64,000 nt of DNA from Lentilactobacillus senioris DSM 24302 = JCM 17472 (GTDB lineage Bacteria; Bacillota; Bacilli; Lactobacillales; Lactobacillaceae): assembly GCF_001436555.1 (NCBI RefSeq), contig NZ_AYZR01000009.1, forward strand, positions 62,001 to 126,000, given 5' to 3'. The position numbers and the translations under genes are program-made. The first letter of the stretch is position 1. Each line of letters begins with the position of its first letter. The notes below the pieces were generated by a model. The model made no database searches and was not told the DNA's origin. It was given only the letters and a program-made list of their open reading frames with translations. Positions 30,603-42,006 of this stretch are shown here, piece after piece.

Positions 30603-30676
30603 TCGGGAAAACAAGATTTGAACTTGCGACCCCTACGTCCCGAACGTAGTGCTCTACCAAGCTGAGCTACTTCCCG
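30603..30676 (-). tRNA. tRNA-Pro (anticodon CGG)
   Basis: Cloverleaf with acceptor CGGGAAG, D arm, anticodon loop TTCGGGA (anticodon CGG, codon CCG) on a CTACG/CGTAG stem, and T loop TTCAAAT. Discriminator A; CCA is not encoded. The first 28 bases are identical to the neighbouring tRNA-Pro(TGG); the two differ in the anticodon and T arms. Confidence 0.95.
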
Positions 30677-30723
30677 AAGTACTATACCTAATATAGCACA
30701 AAATTGATAAATTCAAAAAAATA

Positions 30724-30797
30724 TCGGGAAGACAGGATTCGAACCTGCGACCCCCTGGTCCCAAACCAGGTGCTCTACCAAGCTGAGCTACTTCCCG
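30724..30797 (-). tRNA. tRNA-Pro (anticodon TGG)
   Basis: Cloverleaf with acceptor CGGGAAG, anticodon loop TTTGGGA (anticodon TGG) on a CCTGG/CCAGG stem, and T loop TTCGAAT. CCA not encoded. Probably the ancestral partner of the tRNA-Pro(CGG) next to it. Confidence 0.96.
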
Positions 30798-30816
30798 AAA
30801 AAATGACACAAAAAAA

Positions 30817-30890
30817 TGCACCCAGTAGGAGTCGAACCTACAACCTTCTGATTCGTAGTCAGACACTCTATCCAGTTGCGCTATGGGTGC
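30817..30890 (-). tRNA. tRNA-Arg (anticodon ACG)
   Basis: Acceptor GCACCCA/TGGGTGC, anticodon loop CTACGAA (ACG), read with inosine at position 34 to decode CGU, CGC and CGA. Discriminator A; CCA not encoded. Confidence 0.96.
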
Positions 30891-30909
30891 AAGGTTATTA
30901 AAAAGAAAA

Positions 30910-30981
30910 AGCGGAAAACGGGATTCGAACCCGCGACCCCCACCATGGCAAGGTGGTGCTCTACCACTGAGCTATTTCCGC
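30910..30981 (-). tRNA. tRNA-Gly (anticodon GCC)
   Basis: Acceptor GCGGAAA/TTTCCGC, short D loop, anticodon loop TTGCCAT (GCC), discriminator T as is usual for bacterial glycine tRNAs. Lies three bases from the tRNA-Thr gene. Confidence 0.96.
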
Positions 30982-30984
30982 ATA

Positions 30985-31058
30985 TGCCGACTAGACGATT
31001 CGAACGCCCGACCCCCTCATTACTAGTGAGGTGCTCTGACCAACTGAGCTAAGTCGGC
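30985..31058 (-). tRNA. tRNA-Thr (anticodon AGT, unusual A34)
   Basis: Acceptor GCCGACT/AGTCGGC, D arm GCTC/GAGC, anticodon stem CCTCA/TGAGG around loop CTAGTAA, so the anticodon is AGT. The G1-C72 and C2-G71 pairs and G35-T36 are threonine identity elements. A at position 34 in a threonine tRNA is rare in bacteria and would need deamination to inosine to read ACC and ACA. The T arm uses two G-T pairs but folds. Confidence 0.9.
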
Positions 31059-31079
31059 AAAATATAAAAAATGAACCAA

Positions 31080-31161
31080 TGCGGGCGAAGGGATTCGAAC
31101 CCCCACGTCATAAGACACTAGAACCTAAATCTAGCGCGTCTGCCAGTTCCGCCACGCCCGC
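31080..31161 (-). tRNA. tRNA-Leu (anticodon TAG)
   Basis: Class II tRNA of 82 bases with acceptor GCGGGCG, a long variable arm, and anticodon loop TTTAGGT (TAG, codons CUN). Discriminator A; CCA not encoded. Confidence 0.95.
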
Positions 31162-31179
31162 AAAAGTTAAAACTGGCAA

Positions 31180-31252
31180 TGAGCCGTGACAGGCTCGAAC
31201 TGTCGACCCTCTGATTAAAAGTCAGATGCTCTACCAACTGAGCTAACGGCTC
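31180..31252 (-). tRNA. tRNA-Lys (anticodon TTT)
   Basis: Acceptor GAGCCGT/ACGGCTC, anticodon loop CTTTTAA (TTT) on a TCTGA/TCAGA stem; T loop TTCGAGC. CCA not encoded. Confidence 0.96.
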
Positions 31253-31255
31253 ATA

Positions 31256-31328
31256 TGGAGGATACAGGGTTCGAACCTGTGACCCCCTGCTTGTAAGGCA
31301 GATGCTCTCCCAGCTGAGCTAATCCTCC
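31256..31328 (-). tRNA. tRNA-Val (anticodon TAC)
   Basis: First gene of the tRNA operon. Acceptor GGAGGAT/ATCCTCC, anticodon loop CTTACAA (TAC), T loop TTCGAAC. It starts about 45 bases downstream of the inferred transcription start. Confidence 0.96.
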
Positions 31329-36521: not shown

Positions 36522-36750
36522 AAAAAAGATCCCTCTCCAAGAATATGGAAAGAGACCTTAAAAGTTTCTTCATATCTCAGATAGCACTCCGTAGTTATGA
36601 ACTACGACAGTCCTTGACCTATTCAGCCAAGACCCAACTACCAATTTGAAAAGCAAATGGTAATTTCGGCAAACGCTCCTTTGACTAATCCTCACAGCTG
36701 CTTTTCCAGCTCCGATTAGCTACTAATATTGTCTGCGCCTCTACATCGAA
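36522..36750 (-). promoter_or_regulatory. Lysine riboswitch (L box)
   Basis: The minus-strand RNA begins with GTAGAGGCGCAG and ends with GAGTGCTATCTGAG, the two sides of the riboswitch P1 region, and holds the conserved AGTAG, GGAGCG-TTGCCGAA and GGCTGAATAGGTCAAGG elements in the right order. A terminator follows (36522-36557: TCTCTTTCCA pairs with TGGAGAGGGA, then a T run). High lysine should stop transcription of lysP. This fills the 332-base gap 36479-36810. Confidence 0.95.
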
Positions 36751-36772
36751 TTTCATTTAAATGTTTGTCAAT

Positions 36773-40016: not shown

Positions 40017-40931
40017 TTATGGTATATCTTTTCCCTGATCATATATTATATCCTGGTTGACTCCTCGACTAGCTTCAGCCTGGATCGTAACGTGACAAAC
40101 TCCGTACTTAGTTTTTAAGATTTTAGTGATTTGATCATAAATTACTTCAGCCTTACTAATCTTCATGTCACTAAGGTTAACGTGAACTGAAACAATAATA
40201 TTATTTTCATCAATTAACCACGCATGTAAATGATGGACTCCTTTGACATCAGGAAGGGCCAACAAATCATTCTTTACAGCATCGAAATCAAGATTAGTGG
40301 GGGCTCCTTCCATCAAAATCTTGATAGTTTCTTTAATAATGGGAGCCGATTCATACATAATATAAATTGCTACGGCAATCGTGACTGCCGGATCGACCCA
40401 GGTCCAATTAAAAATCTGAATTAAGATACCGCCTATAATAATCGCTACTGACGATAAAGCATCGCTCATAATATGCAAATAAGTAGCCCGCATATTGAGA
40501 TTATTCTTGGACCCTGAGCTTAATAACAATGCCGAAATCACATTAGCTGCTAAGCCAATCACCGCCACCGTTAACATTAACGTGCCATTAATAGGTTCGG
40601 GATGCGAAATTCTGCGAACGGCTTCAATCACCAAAATCGCACACACTAAAATCAAGGCTAATGCATTTAACAATGCAGTAATGATTTGAGCTCGTCGATA
40701 CCCATATGTATTAGTTTCAGTCTGAGGCTTTCGACTTATACGATGTGCAAAATAACTAATTACGATCGAAAGCGAATCTCCCAAGTTATGAAAGGCGTCA
40801 GACAATAGTGACAAACTACCAGCCACGGCTCCCCCGACAAATTCAGCAATGGTGATCACTACATTTAAAACGGTAACCCAAAAGAAACGGCGCCCACTCA
40901 TATCAGAATCAGTATGTTGGTGTTTTGTCAT
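40017..40931 (-). CDS. Cation diffusion facilitator metal exporter
   Basis: CDF-family metal/proton antiporter of the CzcD/ZitB group; exports Zn, Co, Mn or similar ions across the cytoplasmic membrane. 304 residues with six membrane segments and a cytoplasmic C-terminal domain. The HNxGD motif in the second segment (SDAFHNLGDS) and HIMSDALSSV in the fifth are the expected metal ligands. The N terminus is rich in histidine and aspartate (KHQHTDSD). First gene of a four-gene operon with a DtxR-type regulator, which points to control by metal. Confidence 0.93.
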   Translation of the reverse strand: MTKHQHTDSDMSGRRFFWVTVLNVVITIAEFVGGAVAGSLSLLSDAFHNLGDSLSIVISYFAHRISRKPQTETNTYGYRRAQIITALLNALALILVCAILVIEAVRRISHPEPINGTLMLTVAVIGLAANVISALLLSSGSKNNLNMRATYLHIMSDALSSVAIIIGGILIQIFNWTWVDPAVTIAVAIYIMYESAPIIKETIKILMEGAPTNLDFDAVKNDLLALPDVKGVHHLHAWLIDENNIIVSVHVNLSDMKISKAEVIYDQITKILKTKYGVCHVTIQAEASRGVNQDIIYDQGKDIP

Positions 40932-41045: not shown

Positions 41046-41267
41046 AAAAAAACGGTACGGATTACTCCGCACCGTTATTACGAATCGGTTCACCACCAGC
41101 TAAGGTTTAATTAAATTCACTTCGTTTAATATACTCGGAGACTGACCCAACCTAAGATTGAGTTCTCAAAGTGCTATTTGCTGCACCAACTTACATTCGT
41201 TCGTTAAAACAGACATTGACAAAACGACATCCAATTAATCAAAAGACCGATGAGTGAACCGATTCTC
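41046..41267 (-). ncRNA. Structured small RNA, possibly 6S RNA
   Basis: Independent transcription unit of about 220 bases in the 380-base gap 40932-41311. It starts just below a good promoter and ends at a strong terminator (41051-41076). The 5' segment 41254-41265 is perfectly complementary to 41082-41093 (12 pairs). Inside, CATCGG pairs with CTGGTG and TTTGATTAA with TTAATTAAA, then CGTTT with AAACG, giving a long rod with internal loops. No plausible ORF. This shape fits 6S RNA, which binds RNA polymerase, but I did not recognise the primary sequence. Confidence 0.65.
41051..41076 (-). terminator. Terminator of the small RNA
   Basis: On the minus strand an eleven-pair stem AACGGTGCGGA / TCCGTACCGTT (one G-U) with a four-base loop followed by seven T. 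On the plus strand the same pair is an A-C mismatch, so the direction is minus. Confidence 0.9.
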
Positions 41268-41273
41268 ATTGTT

Positions 41274-41302
41274 AGAATAGCACGTCCACTTAGATTCGAC
41301 AA
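41274..41302 (-). promoter_or_regulatory. Promoter of the small RNA
   Basis: Minus strand: -35 TTGTCG (41297-41302), 17-base spacer, -10 TATTCT (41274-41279) with TGC before it (extended -10). The inferred start lies at the beginning of the long closing stem. Confidence 0.7.
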
Positions 41303-41598: not shown

Positions 41599-42006
41599 TT
41601 ATTCTTCCACCATTCTCCAATCACCTTCAGCAGCTTTAGAGATTTGGTTAATGAAATGCAATAGTGACTGAGCTTGCTCCTCATCGTGGGCCTGTAATAA
41701 GTTTAGACCAGCCCCGGTCGTCATCGGTACGCTTAGTGAAAAATCAGTACCCTTTTCGCCGTCTTGTTCACCAGTAGCAAAAACCAACACCGTAGTTCCA
41801 TCCTCAATAGTTGTAATAATAAAAAAGAGACTAAAATCATCATCTTGCTTCATATAAGCTGGCATTGCCCAAACATCATCAGCAATTTGAATTAACTCTT
41901 CATTACCATACTTATAATCTTTATGGTTAGCTTTCGTTACCGGATTAGCTAAAACAAACATCATATTATCGAATACGGGATTACCTAATTTAATATTATC
42001 TTCCAT
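41599..42006 (-). CDS. Conserved-looking protein of unknown function
   Basis: 135 residues, acidic (pI low), no membrane segment or signal peptide. I do not recognise a family. Predicted mixed alpha/beta, with a TIEDGTTVLVFATGEQDG hairpin. The start follows TAGGA by seven bases and overlaps the end of the 42-codon ORF upstream, so the two may be translated together. It lies between the small MerR-like gene and a GNAT gene. Confidence 0.7.
   Translation of the reverse strand: MEDNIKLGNPVFDNMMFVLANPVTKANHKDYKYGNEELIQIADDVWAMPAYMKQDDDFSLFFIITTIEDGTTVLVFATGEQDGEKGTDFSLSVPMTTGAGLNLLQAHDEEQAQSLLHFINQISKAAEGDWRMVEE

Follow-up and report, generated by a model that had tools for sequence, protein, structure and literature searches.

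What kind of gene, if any, occupies the minus-strand interval between a small MerR-type regulator gene and a CDF cation-efflux gene in Lentilactobacillus, a genus known from silage, kefir and other ferments? We addressed this question for the copy of the interval in Lentilactobacillus senioris DSM 24302, which lies in a 64,000-nucleotide stretch of contig NZ_AYZR01000009.1 (hereafter, the window). A preliminary description, made from the letters of the window alone, had proposed an unnamed, independently promoted structured RNA, possibly 6S RNA. The first part of this proposal is supported by sequence and covariation, and the second fared poorly. Our best reading of the whole, to which we assign a probability of roughly 0.7, is a stand-alone structured ncRNA gene of an undescribed family, that is, a predicted transcription unit whose product would act in trans. 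As expected of a gene of this kind, the locus has its own promoter, a covarying structure, its own terminator and no family-wide open reading frame.

Promoter, terminator and fold of the window's copy

The RNA is predicted to be about 220 bases long, with a start near 41267 and a 3' end within the T run at 41050-41046 (Table 1). The extended -10 promoter that had been described is present on the minus strand, 17 nt from the -35 element, and the pattern TTGTNN-17-TANNCT was picked by script in 23 of the 24 Lentilactobacillus loci; at the 24th, L119, the script chose another site, yet the sequence has TTGTTT and TATTCT. A generic promoter scan misses this site, so the support for the promoter comes from its conservation in the genus. 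At the other end of the RNA, a terminator scan found one terminator, compared with 0.3 in shuffles, and the G-U wobble that had been noticed in its stem, present on the minus strand only, can be read from the sequence. A script found a terminator-like hairpin at 45 of the 46 loci of the RNA family. Together, these elements show a predicted independent transcription unit with its own sigma-A-type promoter and terminator. The downstream CDF gene has a promoter-like site of its own at 40988-40960, in a scan that found one site where 1.5 were expected by chance.

The window's copy is predicted to fold much more stably than shuffled sequence. Over 41282-41050 on the minus strand the folding energy is -80.4 kcal/mol, compared with -51.8 +/- 4.2 kcal/mol for shuffles, and none of 200 shuffles is as stable (z -6.88); over 41080-41270 the z-score is -5.08 for the minus strand and -3.10 for the plus strand. 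The perfect 12-bp closing stem proposed between the RNA ends, in which GAATCGGTTCAC pairs with GTGAACCGATTC, appears in the minimum-energy fold, as do two of the pairings proposed further inward, CATCGG/CTGGTG and CGTTT/AAACG; a third, TTTGATTAA/TTAATTAAA, is there only in part. The rod shape that had been suggested for the whole RNA stands as far as the long stalk is concerned, but not as a simple rod, for the comparative structure has a three-hairpin head.

Table 1. Features of the predicted RNA gene and its neighbours, in window coordinates.
Feature	Position	Strand	Basis or remark
Predicted transcript of structured RNA	41046..41268	-	Promoter, fold, terminator, genus-wide conservation
-35 element TTGTCG	41297..41302	-	17-nt spacer to -10
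Extended -10 TGC TATTCT	41274..41282	-	Sequence, genus conservation
Intrinsic terminator	41046..41076 (stem 41076-41051, T run)	-	Terminator scan
Closing stem P1, 5' arm GAATCGGTTCAC	41254..41265	-	12 bp, perfect; minimum-energy fold
Closing stem P1, 3' arm GTGAACCGATTC	41082..41093	-	Pairs with GAATCGGTTCAC
Inner pairing CATCGG with CTGGTG	41247..41252 with 41099-41094	-	Minimum-energy fold
Core matched by covariance models R1 and R2	41104..41240	-	68.2 bits (R1), 90.1 bits (R2)
Stem P2a	41238-41229/41116-41107	-	Within R1/R2 core
Stem P2b	41227-41221/41128-41122	-	Within R1/R2 core
Domain matched by model R3	41115..41197	-	68.4 bits; common to three further genera
Hairpin H2, GTGC...GCAC	41171..41186 (41186-41183 with 41174-41171)	-	Family alignment
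Hairpin H3	41145..41163 (41163-41156 with 41152-41145)	-	Family alignment; best covarying element
Upstream neighbour, small MerR-type HTH gene, 74 aa	41312..41536	-	Pfam; not part of the RNA
Downstream neighbour, CDF cation-efflux gene	40017..40931	-	Pfam

Conservation and covariation in Lentilactobacillus and three further genera

An exact pattern from the conserved core matched 10 contigs in a named genome collection, all of them from Lentilactobacillus. With blastn against 150 relatives, 18 genomes matched: our own, 12 further Lentilactobacillus and 5 from outside the genus. These last 5 matches, of 26-42 bases each, were dropped as chance. A covariance model built from 11 genus sequences (R1), from which both our own copy and that of the closely similar G014 were left out, found one copy each in all 24 Lentilactobacillus genomes among 397 genomes of the family, including the window's copy at an E-value of 7e-12, and gave no match in the other 373. 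The training sets of two further models, R2 and R3, include the window's copy.

In the genus core alignment of 24 sequences (22 distinct), 95.2% of cells are paired and 16 pairs changed on both sides, compared with 7.2 in shuffles, figures that lean towards the model to which the alignment was fitted. When the partner is slid by 1-3 columns, pairing falls to 33-44%. The closing stem P1 provides independent support for the structure, because it lay outside the model. Its mean duplex energy is -29.6 kcal/mol, compared with -18.6 kcal/mol when the arms are taken from different species and -13.8 kcal/mol when they are shuffled. At each of the 24 genus loci the two arms of the same RNA pair more strongly than the median cross-species pairing, and the sequence of P1 changes across the genus while the stem stays (24/24). 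Conservation of the stems in relatives, named in the preliminary description as a check, is thus borne out both by P1 and by covarying pairs in the core. Taken together, the comparisons show that selection acts on the predicted secondary structure, and that the genus RNA is predicted to form a long stalk (P1, P2a and P2b) bearing a head of three hairpins (H1, H2 and H3). Within this head, the alignment and covariation mark H1 as variable, H2 as GYGC/GCRC and H3 as fully covarying; the strands of the internal loop read UUUGAGU, in most copies from the genus and from a further genus, g20, and NAGNNNYCG. By eye, the H2 loop and UAUUCG might form a pseudoknot, an idea that was dropped, since the pairing is not kept in L001, L003 or L013.

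Outside the genus, R1, and R2 with filters, missed the relatives in two g20 genomes (G042 and G078), which were revealed by synteny and unfiltered search: in both genomes an intergenic RNA lies behind the orthologue of the MerR gene. Run unfiltered, R2 gave 29.7 bits (E 3.4e-5) for the G078 RNA, with the expected strand and position, and 13.3 bits for the G042 RNA (E 0.36, or 0.011 over 701 bases); the two RNAs share 75% DNA identity (E 4e-55). A 79-position domain model (R3), built from 19 genus and 3 g20 sequences, had matches with an E-value of 0.05 or lower in 62 of the 397 genomes of the family. At E below 5e-4 it matched all 15 genomes of the g20 set, 2 g15 genomes and 5 g38 genomes, besides 24 of 24 Lentilactobacillus, the g15 and g38 figures being counts of matches given without the number of genomes searched. 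Nineteen of these 22 non-genus genomes were absent from the training of R3. R3 did not match G037 (g15), and its matches include neither G074 (g15) nor G060 (g38). The 16 weak R3 matches (E 0.001-0.05) were taken as chance, with about 20 expected over 397 genomes; 10 of them were fetched, and 7 of these lie in or overlap long open frames.

The structure can be followed into these genera. In all 14 of the non-genus loci that were aligned (of 22), the 5' end carries the extended -10 sequence ATGNTANNNT, followed by H2, H3, the strand AGNAAYCGU and the terminator region. Across 46 loci (40 distinct), H3 shows changes on both sides at all 8 of its pairs, and 117 cells carry such changes, compared with 34 in shuffles; counted as pairs with a both-side change, the figure of 11 is not above shuffles (9.1, with 68 of 500 as high). 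H2 is paired in 100% of cells, and one of its four pairs varies (C-G 20, U-A 20). The internal-loop helix, P3, is paired in 73.6% of cells across genera, and one g20 pair in it is G opposite A. H1 was not seen in g20, g15 or g38. The two MerR-linked g20 loci, both g15 loci and all five g38 loci have an extra hairpin, CAAUCGAUCUU/GGCUGGAUUG, which is unlike H1 and shows paired changes in L227 and L272. Behind this hairpin, in L226 (g20), L269-L270 (g15) and L271-L275 (g38), are CAUGUUG and CGUGUU stretches; on visual inspection, these might compete for the 3' strand (CAACGUG or similar), a possible switch. In a scripted test of the closing stem, 9 of the 46 loci (L119, L264, L265, L269 and L271-L275) had z-scores no lower than -1.2; in L119, L264 and L265 the value is weak because the script took the wrong start. 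Five of the nine were folded, with long end-to-end pairing in L264, L271 and L272 and none that is clear in L269 and L275.

No Rfam family matches the RNA. A scan of the whole 64-kb window with Rfam 15 at curated scores gave no match at the RNA, and no Rfam gathering score was reached at the RNA in the loci searched, 20 of the 24 in the genus and 10 of the 22 elsewhere. At E up to 10 the window's RNA region has two Rfam matches, both chance-like. Hits to Leu_leader (L101, L106), ncr952 (L114) and STnc390 (L115) that touch or border the RNA, at 22-23 bits against cut-offs of 50-100, were also taken as chance. RNase P, which the preliminary description had already set aside as an identity, served as a search control and was found elsewhere in the genome, so this identity falls away. 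Elsewhere in the window, Rfam places a lysine riboswitch (120 bits) at 36574-36751 on the minus strand, upstream of a 504-aa gene (36508-34994) that we take, by eye, to be an amino-acid permease, and a cluster of eight tRNA genes at 30603-31328, also on the minus strand. One Lentilactobacillus pattern of the RNA gave 0 matches in viral contigs.

Lactobacilli have other orphan structured ncRNAs, such as GOLLD and ROOL, which are conserved, highly structured and stand-alone. The new RNA resembles them in being a stand-alone conserved structured RNA; it differs in size, GOLLD and ROOL being several times larger, and has no Rfam match here. The Lacto-usp RNA (RF01710) offers another comparison, being likewise structured, restricted to Lactobacillales and without an assigned role, according to a published table (PMC2864571). 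Its model, however, has no match at the window's RNA region or in the 20 of 24 genus loci searched, and the new RNA is not upstream of usp. Among the papers that searches of open-access literature brought up, none reports the new RNA in its title or opening abstract lines; a supplementary table may list it as an unnamed sRNA. The model searches show a putative family that has no Rfam entry, with members in each of the 24 searched genomes of Lentilactobacillus and in a further three genera of Lactobacillaceae.

Relation to 6S RNA

The likeness to 6S RNA (SsrS, RF00013) that prompted the original suggestion extends to a length of about 190-220 nt, an own promoter, a long closing stem, a terminator, a single copy and genus-wide presence. 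The new RNA differs in having no covariance match, no full motif, no place at the rarA-uspA site and no kept central bubble. RF00013 was found in 82 of 150 relatives (stricter filters) and in 0 of 24 Lentilactobacillus genomes, a count made up of 23 same-genus genomes (stricter filters) and our own (laxer filters). At the RNA itself, RF00013 gave no match at E up to 10 in the window's copy or in the 20 of 24 genus loci searched, and none at E up to 5 in the 10 of 22 other loci searched. As positive controls, L035, L049, L053 and L289 were found at gathering level (56-74 bits), and three weaker 6S loci, L057, L061 and L065, fell below the gathering cut-off in the control search, as in the survey of relatives.

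The 6S RNA of lactic-acid bacteria sits between rarA and uspA and has been located in over 91% of LAB genomes, the misses being predominantly partial genomes (PMC8414754). We found 6S between rarA and usp in four relatives that were read through (L049, L053, L066 and L289). In Lentilactobacillus this slot is closed. At 22 of the 23 rarA loci of the genus (L071-L093, from 24 genomes searched; our own rarA is at G000:C3:251966-253231), a script found a gene for a small hydrophobic protein within 29 nt of rarA; at the 23rd, L086, the script missed this gene, which the sequence places 10 nt behind rarA, and in the 24th genome, G007, only a rarA paralogue was found. Because the slot is closed in the genus, the 6S gene is absent from its usual place, and not missed in assembly. 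The slot is closed also in 8 loci of g23, g32, g26, g36 and g9, out of the 24 loci without an RF00013 match in which the rarA frame was found (30 given).

Could the new RNA do the work of 6S without sharing its ancestry? It would then be a second RNA polymerase-binding RNA, 6S-like though not homologous to 6S, and perhaps the sole one where 6S is gone. Conservation and a layout typical of housekeeping RNAs speak for this idea, as does the presence of the RNA in 24 of 24 Lentilactobacillus genomes, where no 6S was detected. However, the structure does not keep a large single-stranded bubble, conservation within it is lowest on the 5' side of the head, and the searches found neither RNA in g26, g32 and g36. 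We therefore regard it as unlikely. We see still less chance in the fuller, non-homologous takeover scenario, by which Lentilactobacillus would have lost 6S from the ancestral locus and would now rely on a separate structured RNA that was already beside 6S in g20 and that would bind RNA polymerase or another global regulator.

The features shared with 6S, together with the lack of an Rfam 6S match in the genus and the closed rarA slot, would also suit the genus's own 6S, diverged and moved away from rarA-uspA, but several results make this very improbable. Besides the negative RF00013 searches, the motifs TTGACCGA and CCCACCTG are both absent from all 46 loci of the new RNA but present in 20 of 29 and 29 of 29 6S loci, respectively. 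These motifs, whose letters were read from fetched LAB 6S loci (30 fetched; L028, at a contig edge, was left out), were tested as the conserved pRNA template and the opposite hairpin of LAB 6S, for which conserved pRNA positions are reported (PMC8414754). The shorter motif GACCGA occurs in 3 of 46 new-RNA loci, with 1.35 expected by chance, compared with 20 of 29 6S loci. The head is branched, and the consensus of a stalk plus three hairpins has no large central bubble of the 6S type. The window's RNA sits between the MerR and CDF genes, not between rarA and uspA. The slot is closed too in g26, g32 and g36 (loci read), yet these genera have no R3 match (stricter filters). Finally, both G042 and G078 (g20) have a rarA-linked, gathering-level 6S (69.4 and 66.1 bits, respectively) beside the new RNA; because its relatives coexist with 6S in these genomes, the new RNA is not the missing 6S. 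Descent from 6S is already refuted on present data.

Neighbouring genes, coding potential and biological meaning

The preliminary description had also raised a cis-regulatory element of the downstream CDF operon, and this possibility tested negative. As a cis-acting leader or attenuator of the cation-efflux operon, with a regulated terminator, the RNA should at every locus immediately precede one and the same gene and share its orientation. It does have a terminator at its end, and it lies upstream of the CDF gene in our own genome and immediately before that gene in 6 of 10 named relatives, but its neighbours vary. In 4 of the 10 named loci (L127, L129, L132 and L133) a gene of 190-222 aa, by eye presumably an oxidoreductase, stands between the RNA and the CDF gene. 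A GNAT-like gene (by eye) comes next in several g20 loci and in one g15 locus; in g20 it is on the same strand in L226-L228, L260, L262, L263, L265 and L266 and on the opposite strand in L268. In all five g38 loci the next called ORF is convergent. Conversely, the CDF gene also occurs where the RNA is missing: in g23, g32, g34 and g36, at one locus each, a 135-aa gene is followed directly by CDF, and both the MerR gene and the RNA are lacking. A cis-acting role is accordingly highly doubtful, and on this evidence the CDF gene is not under the control of the RNA.

On the other side of the RNA, a profile search found the MerR gene upstream in 22 of 24 genus loci and in 2 of 22 others, and a link with MerR was dropped after this search. 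As far as sequence comparison goes, the constant element among changing neighbours is the predicted RNA. In Lentilactobacillus the MerR gene is itself preceded by the 135-aa gene, which in the window lies at 41599-42006 on the minus strand. Its protein has no Pfam match; it is matched a second time in our own genome, at G000:C3:339811-340188, and at least twice in every one of the remaining 23 genus genomes.

That the RNA instead encodes a small peptide has a negligible chance of being correct. The earlier claim that there is no ORF holds in that no sense ORF of at least 20 codons is common to the genus, but not for the window's copy, which holds a 21-codon frame from an ATG near its 5' end. 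This frame occurs also in the closest relative, G014, close relatives have other short frames in common, and a frame of 21-26 codons that begins with TTG and lies over the conserved core is common to 8 of the 15 g20 loci; against this, the window's own frame is found in 2 of 24 genus loci, 10 of the 24 have no sense ORF of at least 20 codons at all, no frame is, by eye, common to different genera, and the sequence changes preserve base pairs instead.

The reading we favour thus remains a stand-alone structured ncRNA acting in trans. In such an RNA the stalk, whose sequence drifts while its pairing is kept, would protect and present the head, and the conserved internal loop beside H2 and H3 may dock a protein or a partner RNA. 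Because it is genus-wide, covaries strongly and has no Rfam entry, the RNA is likely to be a housekeeping-type or global regulator. Lentilactobacillus, in which the usual place of the 6S gene is closed, is a natural test case for whether anything replaces 6S, and what.
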